NCBI GenBank assembly: GCA_031213475.1
Contig: JARUPZ010000009.1
Span: 1,116,001-1,180,000, forward strand
Source of the DNA: Nereocystis luetkeana
Taxonomy: Eukaryota; Sar; Phaeophyceae; Laminariales; Laminariaceae
Length of the DNA stretch: 64,000 bases
Direction: 5' to 3'
Position 1 is the first letter of the stretch; every line of letters starts with the position of its first letter. This document shows, piece by piece, positions 1-64,000 of this stretch. Position numbers and translations under genes: made by a program. The notes below the pieces were generated by a model. It made no database searches, had not been told where the DNA came from, and saw nothing but the letters and a program-made list of their open reading frames with translations.

Positions 1-1152
1 GTGGTACAGTAGCGCTTCTGTGATGCCAATCGAAGGCATGGGGCCGCGCCATCTATTGAGAAAATGCATACCAGATACCCTAGTAAACAGATCAGACACC
101 GCAAAACGTCGACAGCAATTAATAGACGATTGGGAGACTATCGTTACGGCATCAACACGGCACGGGGCGTCCCCTACCATACCGGGAGACAACACCGCTA
201 CGCTAACTTTCAACGTTTCTTGCTTCAAAACGTCAATCAACACTTCGTTTCTCTTTCGAGTTATTTTACTCTACAACTGTCAGCATCCACGTCCAAATTG
301 AAAATTAAAAAAAAGTTTTTTTACGACCTTGAATGACACCGTTTTTTACACCAATCAGAAAATTCCATTGGAAAATAACGGTCAGTATGACAACTGCGCA
401 CCAGGTACCTCCGATTACAAACTCACTAGCGGGTATAAATATTTGCACTCCTGTAAAAACGAGCAAACTCCAATCCCAAGTACGTAGTGTGCCCCGAAAA
501 AAATGCGTGCAGTTCTAAAGGAGCTAAGAGAGACGATCATGATCCACCACAAACCTCCTTCAACGCCACAGGCAACCAACAACCAACTATACTCATCAGG
601 ATCACCACTGCTGTAGACATCGCACAGCGTGAATACGCTAGAACGCCAAACAAACCCAATATAGACGCGGGCACCCAGCACGCCGAGATGGACGAAAACA
701 GCAAGGTTGCCAGGGGGGCTGGACTTGCAAGTGTCGCTTCGAATGGGAACTTAATTCACTCACGTACTTTAATCCAAGTCGATCCTTACCCACGTGGTAT
801 ATTCTGCGCGCGTAGGTGGCAGTTACGTTATCTACCCGCGCCCCTTTGAACCATCATAAACATTTCGACCTGAAAGCAATCGCTATCACATAATGCTGTC
901 CACCAAAAGCCTTCCTGTAAAGGAAACTCTACCCCATACCTGGTTTTTTATTATCACTCCACGCACTGCACACATGAAGCGAACACTCCGGGACGCAGCA
1001 GCAGCGGTGGGCAACAACGAAATTTTTTTTTGTATATGAACCACGAGGTTTCCAGGTACGACGTCGCACCATTATCCCCGGCAAAGCTACTCAAGCCGAA
1101 CTATAGCTCCCGCCAGCATAAACGCACAGCACACCGCGCCATTTCAGTTTCC
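1..1152. other. Non-genic stretch left of the aureochrome
   Basis: No frame here shows recognisable protein features. The open frames are short and shift with simple base composition. A TACCAGGTA-type word lies near 400 (CACCAGGTACC). It lies beyond the aureochrome stop and could include 3' untranslated sequence, but no polyadenylation signal could be assigned with confidence. Confidence 0.4.
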
Positions 1153-1495
1153 AGCAGGGGTCATCGCTGCGCCTCTATGTCTTTAGCACAGGTAGACAAC
1201 TTTCATCGCGACACGCCCCCCGAAAAATACGAAAACCTAAGCAGCAACCAACTGACAAGCGAACCCCTATATTTAAGCAGGGGTTATCGCTGCATGCCTT
1301 TATGACTCTAGCAGACCTTTACCATCGCAACACGCCCCAAAACAAATATGAAAATCTAAACAGTACCCAACGAACGGACCCCTCGGCCACATATCTATAT
1401 GTGCATGTCATAGCAAGACAGACCCCTGCACGCCCTAAATAACGAACTCCAAAACCTAAAGAGCAACCAACAAACGAAATCCTCAGCCACATCGA
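1153..1495. repeat. Degenerate tandem repeat, unit about 123 bp
   Basis: A segment beginning AGCAGGGGTCATCGCTGC at 1153 recurs at 1276 as AGCAGGGGTTATCGCTGC. Both copies go on through a CATCGC.ACACGCCCC block and an A-rich AATATGAAAA block. A third partial copy (AACTCCAAAACCTAAAGAGCAACC) lies around 1440-1490. It is just beyond the aureochrome stop codon. Confidence 0.7.
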
Positions 1496-1634
1496 CAACA
1501 TGTGCGTCATCGTAAGCCTCCGCGGGTAGGAACTCGTGCAGTTTCTATGCCTGATGCCCTTGTACCAGGCAACCAATCAAGCAACAAATCGCATCTCATG
1601 TACGAGGCAACCAACCAATCAGCCGGCCAGCCAA

Positions 1635-1772: not shown

Positions 1773-4700
1773 CTGGCAAATAAATACGGTACAAATACCA
1801 TACGCGCATCCCGCAAGTAATCGTCATCGGTCGTGGTGGTAGTGGTATAAAATACTCGCAAGTACCAGGTACCAGGTAACAGGAAACAAGTACAGTAGTC
1901 GTCCATCTATAATGCCGGTGTGTGCCAGGCCAAATCATCGACATTGTACGAAGCGGGCACACGCATTATTCCGCACACTGCAGGTTAATCACATTCATGC
2001 CCAACCGAGGTCATCGGCAATATTAAACCGGCCTTACTGCATACCATGGTACCTGGCAGCAAAGTAGCGCAGCACCTAAATAGCATAGCTGTCGCCAGGG
2101 ACTCGAGCAGCAGGATAGTTGTAAACGCCGTCAACTGATCAAAGATGTCACGAGACAGCATTTTCACCCCTTGACAGACAGCAACTTTTGCCTTGACATG
2201 CCTTGACTGACGCCATACTACTAGGTTTTAGTGTGGAACACTCGGCCGTACACCCTTGACAGCGCATATGTTGCCTTGCTTGACATGTCTCCTGACATCT
2301 ATGCAACTGATAGGCACTGGTTGATTCGGAGAATTTGGAAAATCATGCGTAAATTATGCTGGTACAAGTCTCGCCCGGCGGTCGTAAGACCCAGCTTGGG
2401 CCAGCTCCAAAACATTCATACCTCGGACAGATGGCGATGTTTTTATCTATTAATAATATACTAATATCTACAGTAGGAGTATCTACTGTAGTAATATCAA
2501 CAACACATCATCTATAGTATATTCTAACCTGCCGGTATGAGATGCTGTGCAGGATCTGTGTAGTACAGATCCAACCCAGGAAACATGTCCTAGATCTTGC
2601 AGATGATACGGCTCCCACACGGCAACATGATCTAGTTCATACAGATCGTGCTGACCAGGGATGTATGCACGCACGTACAAGGCGCTTCGCTCCGCGGGAG
2701 ACCTACGCCGCCCGATACGCTCGCTCAGGAAGGAAAAGTACATCAAATTACTATGCGAAGCGGACAGAGGTCCATGATTGAATATAGTTTTTTTATTATT
2801 ATCGTAGTTGCAAACTGGCGACTTGATATTGCCAAGAGCGCCACCGCCATGATTCAGGAGAAAACAGCTCGGACGCCACATATGCCGCATCGCGGGCGGT
2901 TGCCGCACGTACATACCCCAGGTAGGGTTCGTACTTAATTTATTCTTTTGATATGTTGTATGTGCGAAAAAATAGAAAGCACAGCACGGCACAGCAGCAC
3001 CGCAAAACCAACGTAAAACGAAACAAAAAAAATGGGGAAGAAGAAAAAATCCCCGTCCCTCTCCTGCAATAATTTTCTGCCAGATTCGAACACCTTGCAC
3101 CGGTCAAAAAAGAAAAAAAAAAAAAGAACAGCAGAGCGTCTCTCTCAGCCTCGTACGCCGCCCGCCCCTCTCGTGACCACCTCGCCACCGATTCGGTCCG
3201 GGTAAATCATTCCTCACTCTCTGCCACAGTCGGCCCCGTCGCCCGCCTCGCGTGAAGCCCGGTGCTCACCGTGGCCGGCGTTCGCCAGCTCGACAGTATC
3301 GTACTCAGACTGGGAGGTCCCTCTTTCAACTTCAGCGCGGTTGCTAAAATGCGCACCGCTTGAACATTTTCTTGCAATTTCGAACGACCCTTATATCTCG
3401 TACATACTCTATCCAAAATCACAAATTGAGGCCAGACAGAGCCCGTTCATGCGTCCCTCGTGTATCGAGGCACACGCGACGCCTAGGCACGAAAGCGGCG
3501 ACCGCGCTCCTTGCAACCCCCCCTCTACCCGTCAGCACCCGCTGACACCCGCGACGGCGCCGGGCTCTCCCGCCATGCAGTGCTCGGAGTACACGCACGC
3601 ACATGAAACGAAAGAAGAAAAAGGAAGAAATGACCTATAGTGCCAAGAGAAATGGAGAAAACAAAGAACCGCTGGAAAGGTCCGGCAAGTAATAAAAGGA
3701 GGCGGTTTGGAAGTGGGAGCTCTGAGAGGCCAGGGATGTACCAACCGACTACGCTCAGGGATTCGGATCGAAGTAAGGCGTTCTATGTATGTATGTATGT
3801 ATGTATGTATGTATGTATGTATGTATGTATGTATGTCATGTATGTATGTATCTGCCCTGAAATATCTAGATCATCAACTGGGAATAGATTAATAGTCGAC
3901 TATCGATCTCTCCTAGGTGTGCAAGGGTACATACGCATCATCTATCTGTTTTTACTATTTTGACTACCAGGTATTGTATTTATAATTTACACATTTGCAC
4001 CGCCGCCAAAATGTAGGGACGGGAAGGAGGGATCCTTTTGGGCTGAGTGAAAGCCGGAGATCTGCGTCGTCCCACCAAAAATCTGTTGACAGTAGTCTCT
4101 TTCTCTCTTATACGTAATGTATATAATCTATGCTTCTCACCACTCACACAGCAGTCGACCACAGACACAATACCCCGTAGCAAGCTTTGATCGAAGTATT
4201 GTTATTATAGTATCACTATTAAGTACCACACCAAGCTTGCAAAAATGAGTTGCGAGAAAAAAAACGATATCACAGCTGAGGTGTGTTTTGTTTCGGCTTT
4301 CAAAAAGAAATATCCACCAGCTCCAGTTCCTATAAATAGCAGTACTGAGGTTAACCTTGTCTTATTTGCCGAAGGGTCCATGCGCATAAATTTGTCGGCG
4401 TGGCGACACAGAGACTCACAAAAGATGTACAGAAAATATACGAAGAAATAAAGAAAGAAAAAAATCATGTGTACACAACTAAAAGTACAAAACACGTACA
4501 GAAACGTGCAGAAAATGTGTAAAACCCACCTAAAATCAGTCGAAAATCTGACAACGTAGAAGAAAAGAGAAGCTACAGAGAAGTTACAGAGAAGCTGAGA
4601 CAAACGACCAGATATGAATGGCCCGGTAATATTTGTGGTGCTGATACCAGGTGTACTGCCGTACTGAACTGTATCAGAATCCGATCGAGTGGCGGGATAG

Positions 4701-7700
4701 GGGTGGCAAGTGAATTTAGTTTCCATTTTTTGGTTAATTTTCATCACCTTTGAGTGCCCGCTTAACTCGGAGGATAATTGGATAAGCAAGAAGACCATCA
4801 ATTCCAACACGAGTACGGAGGATAACAAGTATCTTCGTTGGCCTCATAGGCTATAAATACAATGCTTCAAATGGAACCAACTTTAAATATTTACGTGCCT
4901 TCCCCACTGCGCAAACTGCAGCAAAAAAAAAGGAAGCAAACAAACTACCGTGCTAACAGGCCAAGACATGACTCAATACGGGACAGTAGACAGTAGTAAT
5001 GCCACCACGATACAAGAATAAGCCGCCGCTCGGAATACACCCCATCAGGGATATAATTAGCTGTTGCGCTGGCGCAACCTTTTGGGCAAAATGGCCGTTT
5101 TCCGCAACAGCCGCGGAAGACCTGGTTGCGCGCAGCGCGCAACGATATTGGGCGCAGGCGCAAAAAATGTTGCGGGCTGTTTTGTTCGCCGCAGGCGCGG
5201 AAACAAATGAAACGCTATTTTTCAACTTCGTCTTCGGCGAAAAAAACAAACAGCCCCCTTTTGGGACTCGCCGCAGATGTTTCCTATTTTAGACCCTTTT
5301 TCTATAGTAGAACAAAAGAAATTAAGGTTCTGATCCCGATACACGCTTTTTCGAGGTTCGGGAGGCGTTTAAAACGCACTTTGTTACTTGGTTTTCGGGC
5401 ATACATTCGCGCATATATCACCATTTTTTGCGCAATAGACACCAGACAACTATATCCCTGCACCGTATTCAACAGCAGCACTTTACCGTTTTGTACGCAC
5501 TATATCGTATCGTATAATACGTTACCGTACTGTTGTTGCGCCGTACTTTCCCGTACCGTACAATATCATATCGCACCGTTCTTTACCGCAGCGTACTACT
5601 GCACCATATTCTAACGCGGCGTTGTACTGTTGTGTACCAAACCGCATTTGACCGTACCATGCTACTAATAATAGTGTATCATTCAATACTTCTACCATAC
5701 TACCAGGTACCTGGTATGCCGTACCACACCACTGTACCGTACCATGCCGTACTCTACCGCACCGTAATGCTGTGGCATACTGCTGTGCCGTACCTTGTCC
5801 GTGTCGTCCCTCAGCGCGGCAACGAAAAACTGGTTCCAAAACGGGGTGCCGTCCGCCTTGTAGTTCATGAGGCAGACGCTCGTGTCTCTGCGAATTGTAT
5901 GGATGGGGGCTGATGATTGGTGTACTCAGCGTCAAGGCAGACAGGTCAACGCAGGTCAACGCAGGTCACTTCAAGGCAAGGCAAGGCAAGGCAAGGCAAG
6001 GCAAGGCAAGGCGAGGCAAGGCAAGGCAAGGCAAGGCAAGCCGAGGCAAGACAAGGCAAGGTAAGGCGAGGCAAGGCAAGGCAAGGCCTATTGCTGTCGA
6101 TGGAGTAAACTCACCGCCCCTCGGCCACCCCTCGACGGATGATGTCGATCGCTCTCGGGTCCGTTCCAGGCCCCTATCGCGGGAACAACAAGCAATACAA
6201 CAAAGGCAGGCCCAGCCAGCCAAGCGAAAAAGCGACCAAGTGTGCATTTTATCGGCTTTCGTTTACTGTCAGGTAATAATTAAACAACTACCAGGGAGAC
6301 TATAACACAATAACATCAATCGCCGACGCGAAGTCAACCTCGATAAGATCATCCATTGCCACTTCATCATCTACAGATCGAGGCATACAGACATATCCCC
6401 CATCTTTTACGTAAGATCTACAGCCGGAAATCATGTTGCCGAGTGGAACCAGTAAAACCTGCATGCCTGATCTAGCACATGTTTCTTTAGTTGGATCTGT
6501 GCTAAGCACCTCCTGCACAACGGCAGGTGAGAAACTATTACTAGATCATCTAGATCATGATATGTCCTACAGCAGTAGGTGTGAAATGTTACCACAGTAA
6601 GACAATACTACGATGATATTGCCCGAGGGGAGATCTTGTCCATGACAAACAACCAGTCAATAAAAGTATCTAGTACAATCGACAACCAACAGAACCGGAT
6701 TCATCGAGGACACCAACGTGGTTCCAGTACTTCGATTGGAATTCATTTACTTACACAATGCGCGCCTCATCATTGCTGATTCAGAAGACCGAACGCTACA
6801 CTATAGAAGTAGGAAACAAGGAAACACTGAGCGATACCAGGAGCAAAATGTCGTCGCCCTCGAGGACCACGCGTTCAGGAACGCGCACGCACGGGGGTAC
6901 CACTCGGGTGCCGACGGTGGCCACGACGGCGCAATTGCCTCCCGCAGCGGAGTTGTCGCCACTACCCAGGGACCCGTCTAGCCCCGACTTCGACACGGCG
7001 ACCTTCCTGCCCCCAAGCACTCACTTCGTCGGCCTTCTCTGCATGTCTGAAGTGAGCCTGGGGGCGGCGCCTTTCTGTGACCCGGCCCGCGTCTAGAAGG
7101 GGGGTGGGGTGCTGTGCAGCGGATCCGTGGCTGGCCTGCTCGGTCGCTTGTTCTTGAGCCATAACCGCCATGAATTCCGGCGCGCCCCACAGAGGGGGGA
7201 CCGTTGTGAGCAGAAGACACAAGCGGAACGATAGCTCCACGCGAGTAGAGAGCTCCCCGCGTCTTCCGACGCTGCACAGCACCCCATGCCCCGCAAAGGC
7301 GCGAGCCGGGTCACAGAAAGGCGCAGCGTGAACGTGACTACGCGACGGCTATGGACTGGCCACTTTCCCCAGCCTTTGAGGAAGACTTTTTGGCGTGTAC
7401 AATTAATACGTGGTACCGGAGACACGGTAAGTTTGGGCAAGCCAACTGACACGAGCTAAGCGGTCAAAAGCGGGAGACAGAGACGTGAGGAAGTATGGGT
7501 AGGACCGTCGACTGGGGCAGGAGGCCTCGTCTAAACCAACTAGTACTACAAATAGTCGGTGAAGACGCAGAAATACTGGAGTAATTTGTTGCTACTCGTG
7601 CTGCCGATCGGTGTGGAGCCAACGATGACCGTCTCTCAGTACCATAGACCATCATACCACCACACACCAAACACCAAACATCACACCAAGAAAACATGAC

Positions 7701-10700
7701 GTAGCTCTATATGAAAAATCCCAGATTGCCCATCGACCGTTCGGCTGCGCTCGCCAATACACTAGAAACACTATGGACTGTACCAGGTACGTCATAAAAC
7801 AACAAATCCAAGTACTGACCCTGCAAGCGACACGAAAAAGGTGTAGGGAGCACGCAGCAGCACAACACATTAACACAAACTTATAGCTTTCACAAAGCAG
7901 AACGCTTGCTATTTTCGTGATCATAATACAATGAACGAACAAGGCAGCAAGGCTGCTATCGATCGACCTTTTACCCGTCCTTACCTGCTGAACACACCCT
8001 ATATTTACATACGTCCGGCAATATTTCCCGAAACATTCACTGGCACTGCAACGGCTACCATACGCGATGCCCCAAATTCACCTGCAGGAAGCGGCAGTTT
8101 CGCCCGATGACGTTCTGGATTGTGTAACCCGTCAATGTCAAAAAGCCCTGAATGATAAACAGAAAAAGGGAAGGAAAATAAACGGAAAGGGAAAAGAAAT
8201 GGCAAAACGATCGGGAACGGCCTCGGCATGCACTCCACTGCCTATTGGATAGGCTGGCAAGGCTGGCAACCGCCGGAGAACACGCGATCGGAATGTTTTT
8301 ACCGACGAGCACGGTGATGAAAGGTGATGAAAGAACGACACGTCGAAATACGGTAGAGGGCCAGCGATGAAGTCAGGTTCGTGAAATCGGCATTTTGCGC
8401 TTTGAAGCACACGGCCGGTACCGCCACCAAGCTGGTGAAAATAAATACGAAGTGCATCAACAACTGTTAGTAATAATCCATACGGTCAAGAAGAAAATCA
8501 ACGGGAACCACGGCTGGTTGCGAAGACAGACGTGACAACTTTGGCGTTCCTTTTGCATGCATACTCCCGCTTGTGTTGCCGCTCCCGTAGAATCTTCGAT
8601 AATATCCTATCCCATCATATCATACCCTGCTACCCTACCCTACCCTGTTCTTCTCTACCGTACCCTACCCTACCCTATTGAACCCTTTCATATACTATCA
8701 TATCCCACCCCAGCCCCCCTTATCCTATCCTGGCTTATCCTACCCTACCCTACCCTACCCTATCCTATCCTACCCAATAGCATCGCTATCAGAGCGTAGC
8801 TGTCCTTGCTGCGGCTACTGATCAAGTGGCGAGCGAAGCCTCTCCCTGGGAAGTTATCAGCTCGGCACACAGCCCCCAATAGTGCAAGAGTCCAGTAGTC
8901 TATTAGCCCGATATCCGTAGCGCAATACGAGCATAATGTAAGTAGTAGGATGCGATAGACTTGCATACGAAGTAAAACATCATGGCATGATGACATGACA
9001 GCACATCATATTAGTATTGGTATTAGTATTAGTATTAGTATTAGTAGGGTGGGTGGGTGATGCTACGGTACGGTAGGGGTACTGGGACACATTGCAACGC
9101 AAAAACAACCCTCGTTGCCAGGGCTCCTAAACTGAGGACCTGCCGAATACCTGGTATACTTGAATCGGGCGTGATTTTCACAAACTTAGTCGTTACCTAC
9201 GGTTATGTATCGGGCATTGCTTGCAATTCGTCTACAAGTTGGTTGTTGAGTGAGGTCCTAATAGTACGAATAGTACTAATAGTGCCAATAGTAAGGAAGT
9301 CCTCCAATCAAAAGCTTCACAAAAACTTAGGTGCTACCTTTACGGTAGCACGCGTCTCACGCTACCGTACCAACTACTGCAGCACACGACAGCGGTGCCA
9401 CCATACTGACACACCCCCGAAACATAAAAACAGATGACTCCAACGAATCATTCAGTACTGCCTGCGAACATGCTCGGTGCTGCGCTTGCTTACTATCAAG
9501 TGCTTCACTGATGTACAACACGATGCTGAGAAATCGGAAACTGTTTCGGACAAGCTGCATGTATCAACACTAACATTAACATCAACATATTCGCTGACAA
9601 ACAATACGAGCAGCCTCACGAGCGGCTAGCTCTGGTTTGCTCGAGCAACCCACCTGGCAAGCGTAAACGATGGTGCACATGGAACGATATTAGTATTTCT
9701 TTGGACACGCTACCAACATTAACATGCCTGCTGACAACTAATCCGCAAAGCCTAACAACTACTGCCTTGACCTGTCTTGCTTGAGCAACTCACCTGGCTC
9801 GCTTATTCGATGGCGTTCAGAACACGAACGCAATAGACTCGAGACAAGCTACCAACACCGACATACTCAACATCAATATGATTGCTGACCACTATTAAAA
9901 ATCGAAAGCCTTACTGCTGACCTACTCTGGCTTGCTCTACTCTAGCAACCAACTCGCCTGGCTCGCGTAGACGATGGGGTTGTCTGCCATGCTAGGGTCT
10001 GAGATCGTGAAGTTCTGCTGGCTCTCCATGAGGGCCTGCATCAGCTGGAAGTCTGGCTCTAGCAACAGGCAGTTCGGCTCCTTCGATTCGTCCTCGTCGT
10101 CTGACTGGATGGCTTGCGCCGAATCCGTGCCCTGATTGGATAGAAACGCCAAAAGGTTTCCACAGTTGAAACGCAAGCATACCACTCGAACCAAGCCTTG
10201 TACGACCCGCCAGAGGCACAATATTTGATTGCCCTCGGCCATGTTCGAGGGGGGGTTAGCCGATCCACCCGGGTACAGCATCCGCCCCGTGTACTTATTG
10301 CTGGTATTTATAGCCGGTACTGGTACTGGGTACCGGAGGGGGAGGTAATGAGCCCAAGTGCAGCCTAATTAGCATACCTGTTGTACTGCAGTCTCATCCA
10401 CGATCGGGACCGGTAGAGCTATTGCTGTGCTACTGTACTTCACTCAGACTACACTGCAGGAGCAAGCTGGTGATGACCAAAGGGAGGCAGTGACTACTAC
10501 TCGACTACAGTAACTACTGTAGTAGTTTTAATCTCCAATAGTCGCCAACTGGGTGCAAAATGAAGGGACGCAGTATCAAGCCGATACGTATAGCAAAATA
10601 GGGTGAAATAGTTCTCGCTAGGAACTCGCGCTGGTGGATACTAGGTACCAGTTACGTATTGATTTGTAACTGATGTGGTCAACGGTGTGCGTTGAGGGGA

Positions 10701-13700
10701 GGCAGAAGGGAAAAAAATCGGAGATTTTCGGTAGGATGGCGCATATCTTTCGAAGGCTTCAACCATTATATAGAATTTCCCGCTTCACCCAGCCGAAAAG
10801 TAATGCATACCTGTACCTGGTATGCCCTATAAGGCATGCCCTACATTTTAGGCGGGCTTGTAGATTAAATAGCAACTACAGTGCACCTGTAAAAGTAGTA
10901 AGCTTACTGCAGTCTTCAACACCCGTCAAGAGAGTGCAATTCAAAGAAACGCAATGCATCATACCGTATTATGTTAATAGTTGCCTTGGTCTTCAATAGT
11001 CGCCAAATGATCACCGAAGAGACGCCGCGACTATCAATAGTTATATCAATAGTCATGGGGTTCACTAAAAAAGTAGTGTTCAATACGTACCTGGTAGTAT
11101 TCAACAGCTGATAATGTTGAAGTGTTCAATAGTGTTCAACCGTGCTCGATAGTGTTCGACGGCCCAATCGTGTCCAATAGTGTCCCCCAGTGTTCGCTAT
11201 TATCGAGGTCCAATCATGTTCCATCGCGCTGAATAGTACCGCCATTCAACAGTGTGTAATAGTGTTCAATCGTGACCACTATGTAGTGTTCACTAAGTAG
11301 TGTAGAGTAGTGTTCAATATTAAATTGGTACCCGGTAGTGTTTAATACCTGGCAGTGCTTAATACCTGGTAGTGTTTAACAGTCCTCACCTTGCCGGAGA
11401 GCGCAAGGGCCTTCTCGTGAACACACTTCTCGAACACCGTTGCGGCCTCGTTCGGCATGTGCTCTTTCACCACCTGCAATAAATAGCCACACGACATGAA
11501 ACATAAAACCACACCACAGACGGAAACGGCAACACCCCGTGGTGCCAACCAACACACGCCGATAACTCAGTACAGCAGTAGCCGGTTACGTCCGTCTGTC
11601 TGCCGCAAGCAGCTAGCACGGTATACACGGTATACTAAGTGCGTCGTGAGCCACCCCCGCAAAATCGCAGTCGTCTGCTCATCGCCAAAATAAAGCCCAT
11701 GGTCACACCAGACAAGGCTTTGAACAATCATGAAGTGATGGGTGAGTTTGCACGATACCGTGGCGGCATATTTCATTCCTTTTCCTTGGCTTACCAGATA
11801 CGCGGAGGCGGTGCGATGACCGCCAAGCAGCAAAACCAAGAAAAACGTCATCTGATACGTCTTGGCCCACCGTGCTACGCGGTGTTACTGTTGGTACTAT
11901 TTACCCGGTACCGATTACCTACAGTAGTACCACTATTACCAGTATCTTGTAGGATTCACCTAGTACTCGTGCGTACGTACCAGGAGCGTAGCGCCATCCA
12001 AGGCCTACTGTAGTCACAAAACTGGTGGGGCTCGGAATAAAAGGCAGCTGTCGTAGGCGCCAAATGTATATACGGGGGCAATCGACTTTCGACCACGCGT
12101 ACTATTAATAAACGCACTACCGCCACTACCGCTACCTTGCTCGCATGCTTCGGTCTACCTGTCTCAGCGCCATATTCTGCTTTCGCATGGCGAGGAGCTG
12201 CTCCTGTAGACACTCCAACATGAACTTTTTGCGAATTCGTGATCTCTTGGCGTGCTCCCTGTTTCGCTCCTGTAGTGTCGGCAAGCAAGCATACATCCAC
12301 AACATGGGGGTTACCAGTCAGCACAGACAACATGGGGCAGAAATAAAAAAGAGTATAGCTGTCGCTAGGAACTCACGCACTTGCGCAGCAAGATTGTAAC
12401 TGAAGTCACCTTGTGTGTCACATTGTGTGCGGTGCGTTGGTTGATTTGCAGAATCGTAGATCTCGGTCGGCGGTCGGTTGAACGGCGCGCCAGAGACAGC
12501 ACGACAGCTTACCAGAAGGAAACAAAAAAATACACAAAGGTAGCTGTTGCTATGAAATAACTCGCACAACAGAATATATTTGTAGCTGCTTTCGTCAACG
12601 TGTACTTTGGTTGGAGAAATAGAAAAACCGTACACCTCGGGCGACGGTCGGTCGAACGGCATCACTCAGCAGTGACCAGGTACCATGTACCGGTTGGAAT
12701 AAACAATAAAAAGAGGGTATAGCTATCGCCAGGAACTCGCGCAGCAGGATACCGTGTTGGCCCCCCAGCAAGCGTCCAGAGACCGGCAGATGGGTACTAA
12801 AGTGCTGGCGAAAGCGAATCTCGTCCGCAACGCGTTGCCGTCCTTGGATTGTACCTGGTAGGCCTTCATAAGCTGAATACTGCTTATTAAGCAGAATAAT
12901 GCTACTAAGCAGAATAACGCTTATAATGTGCTCCTACGTAAATGCTACTGTAGCATTCATAATCCCGAAGTCTATCAATACAGAGGGGTTCGACCCAGAG
13001 ATTGCTGACGAGATTGGACGCTTCGAGCTCCAGGGTACTGCTTGTATGCCGGTACCTGGTATGTTTTGTTCGTTAGAAGGAACTACCTCTTGCTGTATAC
13101 TCTATAGGGCTGTGAATTGGCTGACTAATTATTATTAATAGTTGGCTAGGCACTATAGTTAGTTGGGTAACTACAAGTCGTCGACTAGATAATAGTTGGC
13201 TAAGAACATGGGGCCTTGAGTTGGCTGAAAATAAGTCACCCACAAATAATAGGCATTAGTTGGCTAGGTAGGACGGTGAGCTGCCTGGCTATAAGTCGCC
13301 GACTACTTATTATTAATAGTTGGTGAGGTAGGTATTATGCTTGCGTGCGGCAATCTGCGGAGTTCGGCGTCTTCGTGTCTCGCGGCGCGTTTGGGGCTCG
13401 GATTGGGTGTGGGTGTGGGTGTTTTTGGTGTTCGTAAGTACGAAAGGAAAAGGTCATTTTGTCGACATATTTTGCCACACCCAACTAATCCAACTGATCA
13501 CATACCTAGCCGTCAAGTCCAGTAAATGAAGAGCCCCATCTGTCGGGCTACTTCAGTCTCCACTATGATTAGTTTTGACAAGTCTTCACTATTAAGTAGT
13601 CTTGACTCGAGTAGCCGAAGAGGTATGAATAGTCATTGATAACGAGCACCAACGCTAACAGTCACGATAGACAATAGCAGGTATGAGCAAATATCATCGT

Positions 13701-23903: not shown

Positions 23904-24041
23904 CACTCCCCCTCAATGTTTAATTTGCTGATAGAAAAATATACCAGGTAGTCATAAAAAACAAACCAAGTCAGTGATAATAGAAGAATTCAAGAAACAA
24001 CTCCATACTGCAAGCAAGCAGTTCATTTGATGCGTCAACTA

Positions 24042-38226: not shown

Positions 38227-38260
<34 letters not shown>

Positions 38261-40931: not shown

Positions 40932-41041
40932 ACACACATAATAAGCGCGCCCAAACTCCGCGGTCTTCCTTGCGTAAAAACATACCAGGTACCACAACTT
41001 GTATTGTATCATACCTCGTGCAGTACGTATAAATATTATTA

Positions 41042-41190
41042 TTTATTTTGTCATCCGACAATGTGCAGCATTATCTTCAACACGGATCACTCATAACTTT
41101 CCCGAAAGAAGAAAACCTCGGAAACAAAAGGAAACCCATGCACCAAGTCTACCTCCCTTCCGTGCCAACTTTCGGCTTGTTGTCTACCTG
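41042..41190 (-). mobile_element. LINE 3' end, 5'-truncated copy
   Basis: The reverse complement begins GTAGACAACAAGCCGAAAGT, runs through TTTCCTTTTGTTTCCGAGG and ends CGGATGACAAAATAAATAATAATA. About 85-90% like the LINE 3' end at 50790-50925. Confidence 0.85.
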
Positions 41191-41213
41191 GTACTCTATT
41201 TATTTGCTTAATA

Positions 41214-41366
41214 TTACGGGGGACCACATAGTTAATAGGACCAAATACTGTTGTTAGCAGTAACTAGTTAATAAAATTGGTTAAATATATATACCAGGTA
41301 CGTATTACCTGGTATAGGTGTTTATGTATACCATAGGTCCTATTAACTATGTATGGTCCCCCGTAA
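41214..41366. mobile_element. MITE family M1, copy 2
   Basis: TTACGGGGGACCACATAGTT ... ACTATGTATGGTCCCCCGTAA, flanked by TA. Relative to copy 1 (24042-24153) it carries an internal insertion made of TACCAGGTA and TACCTGGTA around a 5-base centre (41291-41317). Confidence 0.85.
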
Positions 41367-50943: not shown

Positions 50944-51464
50944 CGAATGTGAAAGTATTACCTTCTGAGGTATTCAGGGCTAAAAGGCCGATCGAATTCC
51001 CAGCCCAGGGTAGTCCTTACAACACTCTTCCCCCCTCTGCGCGGCGAGATCTTTGGGGCGTCGGTATCGTATACGGCCGTACGCTGACCTACCCGCTTCG
51101 TTTTAATACCTGGGGAACCAGGGAGATATGTCCTTCGATCGGGTTTTCACTCCTATAGCTCAGTAGGTAATACCTTTACATTTGACGTCGTCGAGGACAC
51201 AGCTTCGAATCTTACTTTGAACGTTTCTTTTAGAGGAACGCTTGCGCGTGCGGTCCCTAAAGACACGTCTCCCTGGTTCCACAGGTATTGAAACGAAGCA
51301 GGTAGGTCAGCGTACGGCCATACCAGGTACTGGTATACGGTACCGACGCCCCAAATATCTCGCCGTTCAGAGGGGGGGGAAGTGTTTTAAGGACTACCCT
51401 GGGCTAGGTATTCGATCGGCCTTTCAGCCCTATATAGCTCAGCAGGTAATACATTTACATTGCT
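50944..51464. repeat. Foldback of tRNA-like sequence, arms of about 190-200 bp
   Basis: The arm 50944-51133 and the reversed arm 51260-51464 match over nearly the whole length (GGCCGATCGAAT, CAGCCCAGGGTAGTCCTTA, GGGGCGTCGGTA, GGCCGTACGCTGACCTACC, GGAACCAGGGAGA). Both outer ends and the centre contain a tRNA-like A box (TAGCTCAG(T/C)AGGTAATAC). The right arm has a 13-base extra TACCAG/CTGGTA insertion at 51322-51335. Confidence 0.85.
51149..51222 (+). other. tRNA-like segment (pseudo-tRNA or SINE head)
   Basis: CTATAGCTCAGTAGGTAATA then CCTTTACATTTG and the B box AGCTTCGAATCTT have tRNA spacing. The acceptor and T stems do not pair properly. A partial second copy (A-box half) is at 51428-51468. 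Not a functional tRNA gene as far as I can fold it. Confidence 0.45.
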
Positions 51465-54400
51465 GCATTTCTTTCCTGCGCTGCTACTAATTCTATGTGC
51501 CTTGCCCCCAAAATGTGTTAGTGCGCTTCTAAAGGGTACACCTGGTAAACGTGAGGAGGTCTATATATGATACAGTCTACAGCAAAGTACGATATACCCT
51601 CATCACACAGACAAATACCGGTACCAGGTACGGCATATGTCTGGTATGCACCTGGTGGTAGTGTTTTTGGTAAAGAACGCGCAACTAGATAAATAGATGA
51701 ACAGCCCCGACCTGGGCTAGTCCTTTTACTAATAATGCTGTGTTGTAGGTGCGTGACACCCGACTGCCGAGGGCACCCAGAGAATAAAATCGTCACCTAG
51801 AACGCAATAATACACAATAACACACAATCACACACCCCACCCCCTACTTGAGGAATGAAGACAATACACTCATATCAGATATCAGATACCAACTACCAGG
51901 TATTCATATTTGCAACATAATATCGCCATAACAACCTTCTACTGCAGCATTCTGCCCATTCAGGCATGCACAATGAAAGCAACGCTTTCGGGCACCGATT
52001 TCCGATAAGGTGAGGAGGGGTATTCGACCCTCCAACGGCTGAAAGAAAATATGCGCATTCGGGTTCCACACAAATCGCGAAGCTTTCGTGGGCGAGGGGG
52101 TGTAATAAGAATGTCAAGCATCGCCTACTCAGAGATCACTAGATTTAAGCGTATAGCTTATCCCACCGCGAGTCCCGCAGCGAAAACACGCCAATCACTG
52201 AGTGAGATAGACAAAAGTCGTTTTTGTTGGTTTGTCTTTTGACCGTCACCATAGCTACCGACGAAGGTAGATCATTTGTGTGGGGTGGAGAACCTTGACT
52301 CCGCCCAAGGGGAAGGATCGTATCACCTACCGCATGCAGTGTAGACCTGGTATATACGGGAAGGCACCCACGGTAAGGCAGGTACATATTCCAGGTATCG
52401 TATGCCCACTGCTGTCTCTGAAAGTGACCACACCACAAAACAAATCAACTCATTCGACGCTGTGACATCTATGTGCAAGAAATATCGCCTCACAAGCGGT
52501 TCTTAGTGGGATGCAGCTCACCCTTCAGGCGACACTCGCCGAACACCTCACGGTACTTCGTGCTTGGTGCTGACATTATCTACTTGGTCTGTGAACACCC
52601 GGCGTGCTCTGTCTCGGCATTGTAGGGATGCGAGGGTCTATGATCGTACGATTACGGCCTTTCATGTGAGTACTTCTCCCCTCTGCCCCCGGAGGGCCAA
52701 ATCCGAAAAAAAGGGAGTGTTTGTCCTAGTTGGTCATGCTTTTTATTTGGTGGGCGCCTCTGGGACCCTGAGACACCTTCTAAGAAAACGAACACTAAGA
52801 ATGGCAGGGTGAAATGGGCAGAGATATAATCAAGTGTGGACTTGTTATAAGTGTATAGCACCCATTCTCAAATAAGAAATCCAGTCTGGACCAGTTATCC
52901 TGTCCCCTACTATTAATAGGTGTCATGGATATATGTGATATGTGGCTTACTAAATGGAATTTTTGAGTGTACTGCTGTATCCCCTTCCAGGTTTGCCTAT
53001 TTAGCAGACCCCTTGTGCTACACGTATGTGTGCTGCGTGCTTGTATAGAAAAGCATTGTTTTGATAACCAATCCGAGGGCAAAATAGGTCTGATGAAAAG
53101 GGGGGGACTCTCGGGTTTTACCTCGTCCACAACTCAAGTTCCATACCTGCTACGTATTATTCGTATTGTAGACCTCCCAAGTAATATGCCGTCCTTTCTC
53201 GCATTCTCAATTCCTGGGAAATACCATAACACTAGCCCACTCTGAAAAGTGGTAAAGGCAGAAATGTGGTAGGTTCGGGGAAACACCGGTGTCACGACTA
53301 TTTCGTAATAAAGCACGGAAGCTTTCCCTTGTCGGTTTTACTACTTTGTATGGGACTGTTTAAGAATGGTCAACGTTGAAGTTCGTGCTATTGATAGCCC
53401 ATTGTCGGGTGGCAAACACCATAATAATACGGTACCTTGATCGAATATGTGGTTCTAAAAAAACGCTCGAGGGAAGCCACCTGGAGGAACTCCGAATGGG
53501 GAAAAGGAAGGAAGTCTACTCGCAAGCTGTAAGGAGTCCGAAAAAACGAAAAAAACGACAGACACCGAAGGGGGGAAGGAGGGGGCGAAAACTCATCCTT
53601 CAAAACGAAATAACACAAGCTACAACCACATGAAGTCGTATTTCGTACACAGCGAGGGGCGGGGGGTGAAACAATGAATTACGACCAGAAGAGCACACCC
53701 TACACGATATCTCCAGCAAAAGGTGGCGGGGGGGGCGAAACATCATCGTCAACAATCCCACAACCAGACACTATAACTAGCGCCCGCGTTGCCATGAGCG
53801 GGGGGGTGACGACAGGACAAAAAAAAATGAGAGAACGCGTGTGACTAGCGGTTATGGCCGATGGCACCAATTGTAATGGGATTGCCAGGGACACACACGC
53901 GTCCCCTGCCATCGTCTCTCCTCGCGAAGATACCTTCATATATTTATAAAATGCGAGCAGGCATTTGGCAGATGATGGGTGGTGTGGGTGTGCCAACCTC
54001 TCGTCCCCGTCTCCACAGGAGCTAGCTACATGGGATAGGGATACCGAACCAAGCTTGCAGTTTATTTATTGTCGAGGTCACAACTATTTCGGAAGGCGAT
54101 GTGTGTGGGCCTTCAAACACGCATCGATGGAAATTGAAACGGCGCGTCGGCGGGACGTAGGCCCCAACTATATCTATACAAAACAGCATACCGTGTGCCA
54201 AAAAAGCCATGTCTGCGGGACTTGAAATACGAATCGATGGAACGGATGACTGGGCACTAGGCCAACACATGAAGATCAGATTGGGCCTGGAGGATATATC
54301 ATAGTGCGTGCCAGAAGCTGAGAGTAGCGGCCGACTCGATGCAATCGTGTGGTGGTGTACAATGGCGTATGTGGGTGGGCGCGGTGAGGGTGGGAGAACG

Positions 54401-55578: not shown

Positions 55579-57718
55579 CTTCATAAGAAAAAAAGAGGGG
55601 GCATAAAGCAAAAAGGAGCGTCGCAGACCATGTAAAAAATAATAAAGGTTAGCCGGATATCAGATGCTCTTGTTCATGGCAGGTCACTCAATGGCGCTGG
55701 CCTACAATTCTATAAATATCGACTGTCACCTCGCCCGACAACCAGCGGCGGCTGAGCTCTTTTGCAATAGGGTAGCTCTCATCCGGTACAGCGCACAGAA
55801 GTGCTTTAGCGTGTACACAACCAGTAGACTACCGGTGTTTGTCAGAAGGCACATTTTTTTGAGACGGGCGGCTGACGTCATGTTCGGTACATTCAAATGA
55901 GATACAGCATGTATACACACTGCAAAGTGCAAACGTGACTAGGGTATGCGGGTATCTCTCGTTTCCCACTGTGCTTCAAATGCTTGAAGCAACAGAGGCG
56001 GACACCAGCTCCGCTTCACCTGCATCAAGTGTTCCTTCGACGCACACGACCAGCATTCTGGGAGTGCTCCTTCCTCCTCCGACAATCTGCCATCATAGTT
56101 ATATTAATAGTCATGCGTACGTATGAGGATTAACACGTTGAGAGGAGCAATCACGCGAAACTCCTAGGGTGGGTGGGGGATTTGCACAGTAAGAGTAATA
56201 GCAATATGAGCATGCTGTTGTAGTAGTATTAGTAGCATGCTGTTACAGCACCTATTGCAATACACTCGTAGACCTATATAGTCCTACGGTAGATATATGT
56301 ATCACCTACAGACTGCAGTGTAATACAATATGAGTGTCCTCCCTTGTGGAACGCTACACTTGCGAGTCACCCCACGGTAGGGGTTGCACTTTTTGGGCCA
56401 AAGGTTTCTGACCAATTGAGTTCCTTAAGTGAGGAACTACCAGTTGGGATGAAGTTTTTCCTCGTATATTCGTAGTAGGACTAGCGCATACAAGTGCCGG
56501 TCGGGTGGCACGAACGATTTTTTTCCAAGTATTGTATCGGGTGAGATATTGAGCTCCTAATGTGAGGGGTTCAGGAACTTCTGGTGCACCCCTACCTACT
56601 ACTGTGGGATGGCTCTTGCCGTAGGACACAACAACACAACGAAGACGGCGAGGGAAATCTATGCTAAGCCCGATACCCAAGCCCACTGGCTAGGTACAGT
56701 ATAAAATATCTAACTAGTGATGATAAAAAAGCACGTCAGATCCGCTTTTGGTAGTGTGATGTTAAAAGTAATTGTAGTTGCTGCAGTATCATAGGAGCTC
56801 AACGGCCCCGTCGGTTAGAAAGGTTTGAGTTGAGTATGTTTGAACTCAGCATGTATCACCCCTACGGTTGCACGGCTCTCTGAACCCCCTTGCGTCGTAC
56901 TTCCGGGTATTCAGTATGTATCACCCCCTACCGCAGAAGCGCCGGGATGTTGCTACATACGTTTTTGTTTGTGTTGCCTCCTCGAGTACCCAAAGCGTTA
57001 AGACGCCCTCTTAACAGAGTTGGATCTCGTTCGTGGAAGAAATGCAGAGCCCCTAATGTCAAGTATGATACATGTGTGGTAGATTTTTTACGTACACGGT
57101 AGATGTTCATCACACATGGTCGAGAATCCTGGCCGGTGCATTGTGAAGTAGGCGTCAACACGGACGGTCTCAAAACGCTAACAGTACGTAGGAAGTCTGG
57201 TTACATGGACGTGCGTGATCATCAGTCGCTGCACGACGGGGATGCGCTCACTACACGCTTATTATACTCATACCAGGTAGTATATGAGGTCCCCTGAAGA
57301 ACAAGCGAACAAGCGAGCAAGCGAACAAACGCAACCATTTGATACCGCGGCGCGAACAAGTTATCGTAGAGTACACCCTAGCAGGGATCACCAACATGAA
57401 AGCGACGAAAGCTACCATACCGTACCTGAGCAAGGCATCCACCACATCTTCAGGTGCGACAACCGCTAGCTCGTCGCCCCTTCTACCCGTATGCAGGATG
57501 GAATTAAGCGCGTCTTGTAGGCGGAGCACTTGTGATTCGCTCAACACCCCCTCGCTCTTCTACAATAAGGTGTAGACAAGCCGAAAGTTGGCACAGAAGG
57601 GAGGCAGAAGACTTGGTGCATGGGTTTCCTTTTGTTTCCGAGGTTTTCGTCTTTCAGGAAAGTTATGAGTGATCAATATTGTTGAAGATCATGCTGCACA
57701 TTTTCGGATGGCAAGGGA

Positions 57719-60800: not shown

Positions 60801-63800
60801 TATGTAGTTAGCCGCATTCGGTACAGCAGATGCCAACACGTGCCAGTCAAATTCCTGCTAGCGTCCGGGCGCATTTGGTCATACAGGTGCAGACAAGGAA
60901 ACCCAGAAGTACAGTAATATGTACCTGGTATGCCGTTAAGGGTACGGGTGACTCGAAATACCTAAATATGCAGCTGACTTCCTTGAAGACAACTTCCTGC
61001 CTGGAAACGCCCCTACAACGCGTCGGACAGGCCTCGTACCCAGGGATCTGTGTCCATGAACATCTGAATCGACCGTGCCTCTTTCCAGTCGAAACACTTC
61101 GCTTGGCAACAAAACAACGCTAGGTGGACGATTCGGGTGCCACGCATACTATTTTTATGTTCGAGAACGACTATCCATCCCACACTGCACGTGTTCAGCA
61201 AGTTAGCTTTGCCGATAGGCTTCTTTGGCGCCTAGAGAATTTACTTCGCAAAAGCTACTGTACATGGACGATTCGAGTGTCGCGGATACTGTTATTGTGT
61301 TCGAGCATGACTATCCATCCCACACTGCACACCTTCAGCACGCCAGCTTTGCCGATAGGCTTCGTTGGCGCCTACTATACTTTGAAGTATACCATCATAC
61401 TTGGCAAACGATAAGCGGACGGCTCAAGTATCTCGCATACGAATGTGTTCGAGCACGATCGACTGTCCATCCCACACTGCACACCTCGAGCGAGTCGGTT
61501 TTTCCTCCAGTAGGCCTCTTTGGTGCCTTTTTGTTCCTGTCCCCCTTTCCCTTGCCTTGTCCGACAGGAGCACCGCTTTCTTCGGCCTCCGACACGAGCT
61601 GTGTTCGACAGCAAACGAAGCGGACGACTTTTCTTTGTTATTTTCGAGGTTAGCCGCGGCAGACAATGGGACCGTGCCCACAAGGTGACGTTCATCACGT
61701 GTACTATGCTACGTTTTTCCCGTGTTATGATACTGAGGAGCTCTGTATGCCACAAACCGACCCTGAGGAAAAATAGAAGATTTAATCCCAACCCGAACGA
61801 GCAATACGAGTGCTACCGGTACCATAGCACGCGTCAGGTACCATCGCTGAACCTTGCGGAGGCCTTCCCTTAGCGCCAGGAGAGAAAAAGCATATGCATG
61901 TCAGACGTTTCGCTTGAACAGATTAGCTACATATATGCTTTAGACTATACTGACAATGCACACCACACCACACCTTACAACGGACATGTGTACGACACAA
62001 TATGGGCAACGAGAAGCAACACGTACGGTAGCTTCGTTCTATGTTTTCTGGACAACACGCAAAATGCGGGCGGCAACCATAACGAATACTGGTAGCTTCA
62101 TGGCAACCATAGCGACCGACCGCATTGAAGCTGCACGGATCGCACCCTGTCGGCACTGTCGTTAGCGAGCACGTTACCAACACGATAAATAGCAGGCCTG
62201 CCAGTAGTAAACAGCGATATGGGTAACTGACACATTGCCGATGCCACTGGGATGCGAAAAGGATAGCAGGCAGATAGCCGACACTATATGGGTAGCAGAC
62301 ACAATACCGATAATCTGGAAAATATTATGGATAGCAAGCACAACACCGATGCTGTATATGGATAGCAAGTACAGTAGACAAAGCTGTGGCTAGTAACCAC
62401 AATCTCTGATATGTTCTGCTTGCCTGTGAACTGCCGCCGGCAACGATGACTTCCACCAGGGAGGGCGGCGTAAGACAAGGGGGCAGAGCGGTGCGAGCGC
62501 CACGTGGACCTGACGGAGGCTCCCCCGACACGGTAGACTTTCGTCGTTTAGCCCCCTTACCCTCCTGCTCCTTCTTCCCCCCCCCCTTCCCATCTTTGTC
62601 TTTCTTTCCGACTGTTTTGCGAGGCGGTGCGCCCTTCGGTGCGGTTCCTTCCGTGTCTGGAGGCAGGAGTGGCACCTGTGAATAGAGAAAGGAATGTGGG
62701 AGGTATTGTAGTATTGGTAACGAGCCGTGCTACATTCGGTAGGTACTGGGGTAATGTAACACTTTTGGTGACTTTTGAGCCCAGAAAGAATACTACCAAC
62801 TGAGGAACTGTAGTACCTGATATCGATATCGCTGGAAACCGATCGATCAATCAAGCCGATTATTTTACTTTTCTAGTGGACATATCCCCGGCCCGTGGGA
62901 TGGTACACCCAGTAGAGGTTACGCTTTGTCTCAAAATCGGTTGCCGGGCGGGGGTAGTGAGCTCCTCAAGAAAGGAAAGAAACCATCTCCAGAAAAAGTA
63001 GACGCTATATACCTTAGTGCAGACATACATGCCTACAGTAGCACGCGTCCTTCGCCTCTGCTCTTTTCGGTGGTACGTTCGCGTTTAGTTGGGCAGAATG
63101 TTGTTGAGTGCAGGAGTGTGGAGGGGGGAAGTGCTTTGTCCATCGTGTCTTCCTTGATAAATTGAGGTACAGCGACACAACTGCTAGTTTCTCGAGCCGC
63201 AACTTCGTTATCAATGTTCGTCGATCCGGTATTTACAGGGTCAGTCGAGTAACAAGATACGCACACTGCGTGCACGATATACCATGTGACGCATAAAATA
63301 CGACTTGCCATATCGCTGTTGTATATAGAGCATCGATCGAATAGGATACTACCGCATAGAGTATATCTATCATTGACACTGTCGATGGACAATGCGAGTA
63401 AAGTAGGGTGGAGGGGAAGAGCGCTTCGTTAATTATTATATCTTCGGTGGTTTTTGCTTGGACGATAGACGCTCGGTCTGGAATCGTCCCGGAGCTGCAG
63501 CGGCCTCTTTCGAACGGACGACTGAGCGCCGATTTACCGACGCCTCTTTTCGCGACCAAAAGCTGTACATCTGCACGTAGCCGCACGACCAGAAAAAGAC
63601 GAGAATGCCCAATCTATTTCCGGTGCATAATAGGACAAACCTATGATTGCGATAGGCGGTAATTGCACGCAAAGCGTATGCTGATGATGGACGAGCTATT
63701 TTCTCGATCGGCTAAACAAATCCAGATAAAAAAGTACCCAGCGCACAGCCTATTTACGTCAGGGGGGGGGGAAGGAACCGCTTACCAACACGACCGTGTC

Positions 63801-63937
63801 TTCGCGTGCAACCTCCTGCGTTTTGATGTCGTGGTAATCATTCAGTAACGTCGTGCCGGCGTGGAAACGTTCAACCTCTGCCTGCATCAGTATGATCATG
63901 TGATTCGAGATCATGCCCTTCTGCCGCTCCAGCCACC
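55444..63937 (-). CDS. SPEF2: SPEF2/CPC1-like flagellar central-pair protein, C-terminal part (nine exons)
   Basis: Exons in transcription order: 63786-63937 (start uncertain, gene continues beyond the window), 62424-62675, 61485-61598, 60470-60760, 59765-59896, 58641-58721, 57426-57559, 56020-56086, 55444-55578 with TGA stop. Exons 2-9 give 401 residues and all phases agree. Order of features: WLERQKGMISNHM with LMQAEVERF and LLNDYH, a Lys-rich low-complexity linker, helices (YSELQSCLDARVLEE), FSVDESFRLVPMPEISPP, an EF-hand-like end (ALPECW and LDPDDIGQVEVEKVV). This order resembles the C-terminal half of SPEF2/CPC1, a protein of the axonemal central-pair projection; the adenylate-kinase-like domain would lie outside. 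The exon chain is well supported by splice sites and phase; the family name is from memory and less sure. Confidence 0.6.
56020..56086 (-). CDS. SPEF2: SPEF2-like exon h
   Basis: Acceptor ATGATGGCAG, one base completing Arg, then 22 codons LSEEEGALPECWSCASKEHL then MQ, donor GTGAAG. LPE.W....(K/E).L is typical of this C-terminal region. Confidence 0.7.
57426..57559 (-). CDS. SPEF2: SPEF2-like exon g
   Basis: Acceptor CACCTTATTGTAG, 44 codons and two bases: KSEGVLSESQVLRLQDALNS, GRRGDELAVVAPEDVVDALL, donor GTACGG. Phase 0 in, phase 2 out. A LINE tail was inserted a few bases upstream of this acceptor (57571). Confidence 0.75.
57571..57841 (+). mobile_element. LINE 3' end with long (AAT)n tail, in intron f-g
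   Basis: GTGTAGACAAGCCGAAAGTT through TTTCCTTTTGTTTCCGAGG to TTCGGATGGCAAGG and about 40 AAT units. Flanked by AATAAGG on both sides (57564-57570 and 57842-57848), a target duplication. 5'-truncated copy of the family at 45642-50925. The long Tyr/Ile frames over it are products of the AAT run. Confidence 0.9.
58448..58538. mobile_element. piggyBac-type MITE, 91 bp
   Basis: TTAA on both sides (58444-58447, 58539-58542) and inverted ends CCCTTTTAGAAACCGCAC / CCCTTTTAGGACCCCAG that stay similar for about 40 bases (TGGGGACAAACC / TGGGGGCAAACT). TTAA target and CCC ends are the piggyBac signature. In intron e-f. Confidence 0.85.
58641..58721 (-). CDS. SPEF2: SPEF2-like exon f
   Basis: Acceptor CTTGTCTTGCAG, 27 codons GGSFSVDESFRLVPMPEISP then PFSAAPE, donor GTGAGATAC. 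Phase 0. The F.V...F.L.P.P...PP pattern is the part most like SPEF2. Confidence 0.75.
58880..58907. repeat. 28-base perfect palindrome
   Basis: Both halves read ATCTACTGTAGATA from their outer ends; no mismatch. In intron e-f. It contains TACTGTA/TACAGTA, a recurrent TA-flanked word. Confidence 0.95.
59765..59896 (-). CDS. SPEF2: SPEF2-like exon e
   Basis: Acceptor GTGCCAATCCAG, 44 codons VYSELQSCLDARVLEE, AMAKARDDIDCQ, EHEWQLQ, donor GTCAGG. Phase 0 both sides. Helical and acidic; the downstream plus-strand CCATCTCCGTC run (59600-59640) is intronic. Confidence 0.65.
60470..60760 (-). CDS. SPEF2: SPEF2-like exon d
   Basis: Acceptor TTTTTTGTCAG, 97 codons: TEEAKPPLAAALSMVLDYAD, an acidic part (PEETEEEFSTAAD), PRKPPPSPLL, then a helix AVWAQADLLATRCQLLLRTG and KKADM; donor GTGAGAATATG. 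Phase 0 both sides. Confidence 0.75.
61180..61495 (-). repeat. Exon c/donor border present three times in tandem
   Basis: On the minus strand, junction 61485 (CTCGCTCGAG then GTGTGCAGTGTGGGATGG), 61333 (CGTGCTGAAG then GTGTGCAGTGTGGGATGG) and 61192 (CTTGCTGAAC then ACGTGCAGTGTGGGATGG). The exon-side sequence (GGC(A/G)CCAA.GA.GCCTA) and about 90 intron bases are also shared. Periods 152 and 141. The third copy has lost the GT. Confidence 0.85.
61485..61598 (-). CDS. SPEF2: SPEF2-like exon c
   Basis: Acceptor TCGAACACAG, 38 codons LVSEAEESGAPVGQGKGKGD then RNKKAPKRPTGGKTDSLE, donor GTGTGC; phase 0 both sides. The end of this exon and its donor recur twice in the intron that follows (61333 and 61192). 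Confidence 0.6.
62424..62675 (-). CDS. SPEF2: SPEF2-like exon b, Lys-rich
   Basis: Acceptor CTATTCACAG, 84 codons: VPLLPPDTEGTAPKG, then KKDKDGKGGGKKEQEGK, then a Pro-rich part ending VIVAGGSSQ before GCAAGC. The donor is read as GC; a GT donor 83 codons-worth earlier is not required. An earlier end at TCCGTCAG/GTCCAC is possible. Confidence 0.55.
63105..63440 (-). repeat. Diverged tandem duplication, period about 300 bp
   Basis: GAAGACACGATGGACAAAGC ... CCCCCCTCCACACTCCTGCA (63105-63165) and GAAGATATAATAATTAACGA ... CCCCTCCACCCTACTTTACT (63405-63440) on the minus strand share about 70% of bases. Both lie in intron a-b. Confidence 0.5.
63786..63937 (-). CDS. SPEF2: SPEF2-like exon a (start uncertain)
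   Basis: Frame WLERQKGMISNHMIILMQAE, VERFHAGTTLLNDYH, AREDTVVL, then donor GTAAGCGG. A possible acceptor CCTCGTCACAG would place the start at 63937. The frame stays open to 63992, so the exon may be longer. Confidence 0.6.
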
Positions 63938-64000
63938 CTGTGACGAGGGCATTCGTCGAACACGACGCGGTTGGACGGAGAAAGTGCGACATGTACCGTT

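Follow-up and report, generated by a model that had tools for sequence, protein, structure and literature searches.

What leaves one and the same nine-base palindrome, TACC(A/T)GGTA, at a great many places of a brown algal genome? The question is raised by a stretch of 64,000 bases of Nereocystis luetkeana, in the following referred to as the window (positions 1116001-1180000 of contig JARUPZ010000009.1, our contig C9, in assembly GCA_031213475.1 with its 1,987 contigs and 465,085,209 bases). The initial annotation of this DNA had pointed to an excess of the word, here written TACCWGGTA, and had read it as the repaired excision scar of a transposon that targets TA. Our analysis makes it probable that the word is indeed the repair footprint of a departed cut-and-paste DNA transposon, which duplicated its TA target.

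Excess of the word in the window and the genome

TACCWGGTA occurs exactly 40 times in the window, 22 times centred on A and 18 times on T, whereas the forms with C or G at the centre (TACCSGGTA) amount to only 2. Dinucleotide shuffles of the window (n=100) contain on average 0.30 copies and at most 3, and the expectation under an order-3 Markov model is approximately 1. Both the over-representation and the restriction of the centre to A/T are borne out by these figures, and the count lies far above the Markov-like frequency at which the initial annotation would have given up its idea. Among odd palindromes of the window that are flanked by TA and have a half-arm of two bases, TACCWGGTA ranks top with 40 copies, the runner-up having 3; with a half-arm of one base, TACWGTA takes first place (35 copies against 7 to 10 expected). 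Nested forms, also described before, are present as four doubles with a step of 7 bases (1863/1870, 5701/5708, 41514/41521 and 41844/41851) and as a pair at 37668/37677, in which the words are spaced by 9 bases and have TATA in common. The individual positions proposed earlier were less exact: 19 of the 25 (the range 37670-37885 being split into its two ends) lie within 7 bases of a 9-mer, but at 398, 15290, 30910 and 52345 only ACCWGGT is present, without both TAs, and for 11341 and 37885 the nearest exact copy is 22 and 42 bases away; position 11341 adjoins TACCTGGCA at 11346.

The word is not confined to the window. In the 465-Mb genome there are 15,917 occurrences of its 16-base double, TACCWGGTACCWGGTA, as compared to 2 of the reversed control, and each of twenty sampled 10-kb regions contains 1 to 8 copies of TACCWGGTA. 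In 19 of these regions, taken at 0.5 Mb in each of the contigs C2-C20, the count is 58 copies in 190 kb, which by rough extrapolation corresponds to ~142,000 single copies genome-wide; the twentieth region had been picked for a stacked scar and was excluded from this estimate. In the 2.9 million contigs of IMG/VR, TACCWGGTACCWGGTA is present in 9 stretches, at one place each, which are provisionally regarded as chance matches.

Sites with and without the word

Clean indels of 3-40 bp between related repeat copies were collected by comparing 276 kb all against all. CCWGGTA is the commonest of them (12 records, which we assign to 7 distinct sites, three being in the repeat cluster of locus L008), and the 14-bp double unit is also among them. 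At 5 of the 7 sites, the shorter paralogue keeps a single TA; at the site near 8828 in L008 the shorter copy has one scar and the longer copy two, and in the L012/L017 pair the shorter copy has TG, not TA. Empty paralogues have one TA and scarred ones two, with a net gain of 7 bp, in line with insertion at TA and duplication of the TA. The presence/absence polymorphism that the initial annotation had hoped to see between alleles or strains is hence found among paralogous copies, used in place of strains: they differ at TA by a step of exactly 7 bp. Among the shorter indels, the 5-bp unit CWGTA is the commonest of its length (7 records, not collapsed into sites).

A reporter is provided by an abundant miniature inverted-repeat transposable element (MITE) of ~109 bp with TTACGGGGGACC ends and TA flanks, found in the window (41209-41371) and at other loci. 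The empty form of its reporter site is GGGGGACCATAGTTAATAGGACC; because the MITE is near-palindromic, each copy presents the site twice. A genome-wide search with fixed flanks and 1-30 bases between them, in which larger inserts could not show, gave 595 matches. Among the 100 matches listed, 46 are exact single scars (TACCTGG 34, TACCAGG 12), 2 are double and 1 is triple, and 18 are by our own reading one-step variants of the scar: TACCCTGG (6), TACCGG (5), and TACATGG, TACCAG, TACCCGG, TACTGG, TACCTGA, TACCAGGG and TACCTTG (once each). An unrelated CCCTTT variant accounts for 11 and a different footprint for 3 (TACTCCGGAG twice, TACTCCGAG once); the remaining 19 comprise two longer forms with CCTGG at the end, a double in which one unit is shortened, and inserts that are short and A/T-rich or unclear. 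No obvious longer piece of an element end was seen by eye in these 100 inserts of up to 30 bases. Within the MITE, scars or variants are seen at two different positions, of which one is mirrored by the palindrome; this, together with the mixed centres, the stackings and the variants, suggests that many of the scars arose independently.

The variants bear on the predicted ends of the element. TACCGGTA is a scar whose centre is lost, whereas TACCAGGGTA and its reverse complement TACCCTGGTA have one extra base. At the MITE site, the latter two outnumber TACCTGGGTA by 7 to 0 among the 100 listed, and the junction GTTAATACCAGGG was found 16 times as compared to 2 times for GTTAATACCTGGG; of the 16 GTTAATACCAGGG junctions, five were read, and all but one of these go on as TACCAGGGTA. 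In the whole sample, the ratio is only 6 to 3. The prevalence of TACCAGGGTA/TACCCTGGTA over TACCTGGGTA hints at element ends of the form 5'-CCAGG, a prevalence that copying of a single scarred MITE could mimic.

The flanks of 86 unstacked scars, compared with those of all TA sites, display a symmetric 16-bp preference: mirrored on the two sides, not T at position 1, A at 3, A at 5 and 6, and W at 7. The p values, which are uncorrected and to which some related copies among the 86 contribute, are 7.3e-7 (position 1), 8.6e-4 (5), 2.0e-11 (6) and 1.5e-15 (7); positions 2 and 3 are weaker (about 4e-3), and from position 8 outward the flanks are at background level (0.13 or more). The flanks behave like a target-site preference, and since this preference ends at 7 bp, there is little room for a hidden terminal repeat. 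Mutated copies are frequent as well: 133 single-substitution forms of the word were counted versus 57 expected, and transitions make up 55 of the excess of 76, which, relative to 103 intact copies above chance, corresponds to a divergence of ~9% per site. The scars are apparently old and unselected and have built up in the course of time; some single-substitution forms could also stem from imprecise repair.

In the window, the copies of the word (named scars according to the probable reading; exact word matches, unless another basis is given) and the associated elements are distributed as follows, no strand being assigned to any of them:

1863-1878, double scar TACCAGGTACCAGGTA
3965-3973, scar, A centre
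5701-5716, double scar, A then T centre
7781-7789, scar, A centre
9148-9156, scar, T centre
10814-10822, scar, T centre
11088-11096, scar, T centre
11363-11371, scar, T centre, within a 17-bp tandem array
12852-12860, scar, T centre
13053-13061, scar, T centre
15315-16723, 1.4-kb element with CWG-TTAGGGGTGCGCTTTT terminal inverted repeats and TA flanks at 15313-15314 and 16724-16725
16496-16504, scar, A centre, within the CWG-ended element 15315-16723
20023-20031, scar, A centre, followed by a degraded second unit
21718-21726, scar, T centre
22980-22988, scar, T centre
23942-23950, scar, A centre
24055-24063, scar, A centre, within a MITE copy (basis: paralogue in sampled locus L011 with an empty TA, exact 7-bp step)
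26460-26468, 9-mer within a Copia reading frame, scar or chance
37668-37685, two scars 9 bases apart, TATA target
37791-37799, scar, A centre, cluster member
37812-37820, scar, A centre
37843-37851, scar, T centre
39549-39557, scar, T centre
39924-39932, scar, A centre
40782-40790, scar, T centre
40983-40991, scar, A centre
41185-41193, scar, T centre
41209-41371, MITE copy with ends TAATATTACGGGGGACC / GGTCCCCCGTAATAGTA, its family being the reporter for empty versus scarred TA
41292-41300, scar, A centre, within MITE copy 41209-41371
41306-41314, scar, T centre, within MITE copy 41209-41371
41514-41529, double scar TACCTGGTACCTGGTA
41844-41859, double scar, T then A centre
51321-51329, scar, A centre
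51622-51630, scar, A centre
51894-51902, scar, A centre
57271-57279, scar, A centre
60922-60930, scar, T centre

The scar at 11363-11371 has possibly been copied by the tandem array, because it is located inside it. Otherwise, the window contains Copia pieces, microsatellites and one frame with a weak reverse-transcriptase match below the Pfam cut-off; no tRNA and no Rfam match at gathering score were found in it. A further tandem array, with units of ~10, 20 and 90 bp such as GGTCCCTATTGGTCTCTAAT, extends over 16894-17574.

The excision model and its rivals

The scars could be generated in the following manner: An element would insert at TA, duplicate it and later leave. Its ends are predicted to be near-palindromic and to read 5'-CCAGG (or CCTGG), and its putative transposase would cut one strand precisely at the tip of the element and the other strand five bases further in, leaving a 5-nt 3' overhang on each flank. 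As these overhangs would be complementary at 4 of 5 positions, end joining could anneal them with one A:A or T:T mismatch, and fixing the mismatch to either base would yield TA+CCWGG+TA with the net gain of 7 bp. Repeated excision at a TA of an old scar would stack a second or third unit, and partial joins may give rise to the variants TACCGGTA, TACCAGGGTA and TACCCTGGTA. Since each jump would leave one mark and cut-and-paste transposition few copies, the marks may reach ~140,000 while intact elements are rare or extinct.

The reading as an excision scar draws its support from the excess, the A/T centre, the 7-bp step at TA, the stacking, the variant spectrum, the symmetric flanks and a decay like that of neutral DNA; the full elements with CCAG ends that the initial annotation had also foreseen did not appear. 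Scans for paired ends (TACCWGG...CCWGGTA with matching inner repeats in a single locus, at most 9 kb apart and without gaps), which are blind to elements longer than a 3-10 kb locus, detected no intact CCWGG-ended element within the loci, neither in 276 kb with exact ends nor in 312 kb with one mismatch allowed per end. Twelve junctions were read out of 35 candidates at the MITE site; none contains an insertion, and all are small variants. Large insertions between paralogues were, by eye, only rearranged repeats and MITEs. With the DDE_3 profile (PF13358), none of 30 candidates from the genome scored. These negative results weigh against the excision model, as do several features of the scars themselves. 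Among 59 doubles listed from the first 2.9 Mb of contig C1, the two centres are the same in 40 and mixed in 19 (p 0.009), the mixed ones being AT in 14 cases and TA in 5, and at the MITE site T centres prevail over A centres in the numbers given above. The same-letter doubles and the T bias imply a further contribution, be it a flank-dependent resolution of the mismatch, slippage by 7 bp or the copying of MITEs. Not every scar inside a MITE stands for an excision of its own, since MITEs that carry a scar can be duplicated with it. The copies in the window are clumped (variance/mean 2.7 in 4-kb bins), those in the sampled regions only slightly (1.3). Five bases between the TAs compare with 2-4 bp, at a stagger of 2-3 nt, in the footprints that the cited part of PMC7913693 gives for Tc1/mariner elements, which precludes strict membership in this superfamily, and the uniform repair is unusual, because in rice only 8 of 94 excisions are perfect according to the section concerned of PMC4423477. 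The centre letter of a scar seems to depend on its flank, and same-letter doubles, T excess and clumping together point to flank-biased mismatch repair, some slippage, and local hopping or hot spots, with the model left standing.

Several candidates for the source were rejected. The paired-end scans gave as their best candidates a repeat cluster local to L008, pairs of MITEs in L011, a repeat in L012 and the segment 51107-51287 of the window. This segment lies inside a longer foldback that has a tRNA-like core, and it is not the source, because the inverted arms of the foldback run past the word; this long, imperfect foldback extends over ~50946-51461, has A and B box-like stretches (by eye), and its 185 inner bases fold as DNA with a z of -6.95. 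The TACCTGGGGTATGTACG family (6 copies) was dropped, its repeat continuing on both sides of the word. An open reading frame at 38122-38778 of the window (218 aa) matches DUF7769 (E 4.6e-10), which we take to be a mariner-type DNA-binding domain linked to mariner-like transposases. The fragment lies beside the scar cluster at 37.7-41.9 kb; no terminal repeats bounding it were seen by inspection, and no mention of DUF7769 was found in open-licence PubMed Central articles.

Other candidate footprints are present, too. The element 15315-16723, of which the sample contains one copy, has CWG ends whose outermost triplets, when read inward, are CTG on one side and CAG on the opposite side, and it is a plausible candidate for the maker of the shorter TAC(A/T)GTA word; the genome may thus contain footprints of two lengths. 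A palindromic footprint of another kind, also bounded by TA, is TACTCCGGAGTA / TACTCCGAGTA; it recalls Stowaway-type CTCC ends and was encountered at C2:1545935, C3:1739692 and C3:3616376, and TACTCCGAGTA or its reverse complement has 12 copies per 264 kb. The TA-bounded palindrome TAGATCATCTA occurs 17 times in the sampled regions and the window versus 0.08 expected and may represent another scar or one repeat family.

A palindromic word of high copy number with an additional symmetric flank preference may also be a functional motif kept by selection, for instance a regulatory, replication or recombination signal. HIP1, a very abundant short palindromic word in cyanobacteria, would be a precedent. 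However, the kelp word is a dispersed insertion at TA that is missing from paralogues by exactly 7 bp, it is stacked head to tail and sits inside MITEs, and its mutated forms are transition-rich and neutral-looking; a functional role is highly improbable. Bacterial heptamer repeats resemble it in abundance and lead to another explanation, a heptanucleotide tandem repeat (TACCAGG)n that expands by slippage. Such arrays do exist in bacterial metagenome-assembled genomes (three units in each of 40 stretches), and the same-letter doubles fit some slippage; but only four step-7 doubles exist among the 40 copies of the window, where single units predominate, different centres stand side by side in 19 of the 59 doubles listed, and a single unit comes and goes at a TA that remains. 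As the first unit is beyond the reach of slippage, this explanation is hardly credible. The prokaryotic triple-unit matches (L046-L085) were set aside as heptamer arrays, a different thing: one centre letter is kept throughout the triple in 36 of 40, and single genomes have several arrays (Acidimicrobiia bin10049 6, Chitinophaga MsE-30jul19-177 6, Deltaproteobacteria C24 bin.128 5).

TA-flanked palindromic words can also sit in terminal repeats, so that the word might be part of living elements and no scar at all. This is very unlikely, as the flanks are at background beyond 7 bp on both sides and, by eye, TACCWGG has a single extension present in more than two copies, that of a repeat (6 copies) which reaches beyond the word in both directions. 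The lack of an intact element in the scans and junctions described above would suit scars without cargo, left by abortive events or by a domesticated transposase acting on very short or circular substrates, with no full element involved. The sequence read amounts to well under 0.1% of the genome, however, and ordinary rarity or extinction explains the absence; to our knowledge, cargo-free transposase scars have no precedent, and we consider this origin very improbable, if a little less so than the preceding ones. A bolder version of the excision model, which we regard as unlikely, postulates well over 100,000 excisions by a transposase with an unprecedented 5-nt self-complementary stagger, the element having burned out or having been cleared from the sequenced tissue; clearance might take the form of a germline-to-soma clean-up at TA sites, ciliate-like but scar-leaving. 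Published excision scars, as far as the excerpts consulted extend, come from between one and roughly a hundred sites and are ragged for the most part.

Known footprints and the meaning of the probable scars

The kelp word resembles the scar of Sleeping Beauty (SB), TAC(A/T)GTA, which is likewise an odd palindrome whose central base becomes either A or T. The near-palindromic footprint with its A/T centre fits the Tc1/mariner type in form, the element ends themselves being predicted only, and it is well supported that the kelp scar works like a Tc1/mariner footprint. According to the passages available from PMC7827188, the transposases of SB and mariner cut the first strand three nucleotides inside and the second at the tip, and the resulting 3-nt overhangs are repaired by nonhomologous end joining; the SB footprint consists of CAG plus the TA duplication (PMC8151067, in the part cited). 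TA target and duplication are shared features, as would be an overhang-derived footprint and the mode of joining (PMC7827188, PMC8151067), whereas CWG in SB and Tc1/mariner comprises three bases and CCWGG here five, in ~140,000 natural copies. Stowaway elements in genes of Triticeae likewise leave natural footprints at TA, with variants containing fragments of the terminal inverted repeat and with new insertions at the TA of earlier scars; the account in the sections seen of PMC1925063 differs in that one or two genes are concerned, the fragments are asymmetric and 1-4 bp long, and the elements are still on site in some plants. In Nereocystis, one nearly uniform symmetric word extends over the entire genome. 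A further comparison is offered by Ectocarpus, whose genome contains almost 12,000 Tc1/mariner copies, most of them non-autonomous (PMC12477816), a paper in which neither 'excision' nor 'footprint' appears. Judging by titles and opening abstracts of the matches listed from open-licence PubMed Central articles, neither the word nor a comparable genome-wide scar has been reported.

A nearly uniform scar in very high copy number would allow the counting of jumps, not of copies, and the target preference could be read from it directly. Its variant spectrum would measure the fidelity of end joining, and stacked and decayed scars would constitute a clock of transposon activity. For the transposon itself, the scars imply a transposase that is Tc1/mariner-like but has a stagger exceeding those described in the cited sources.

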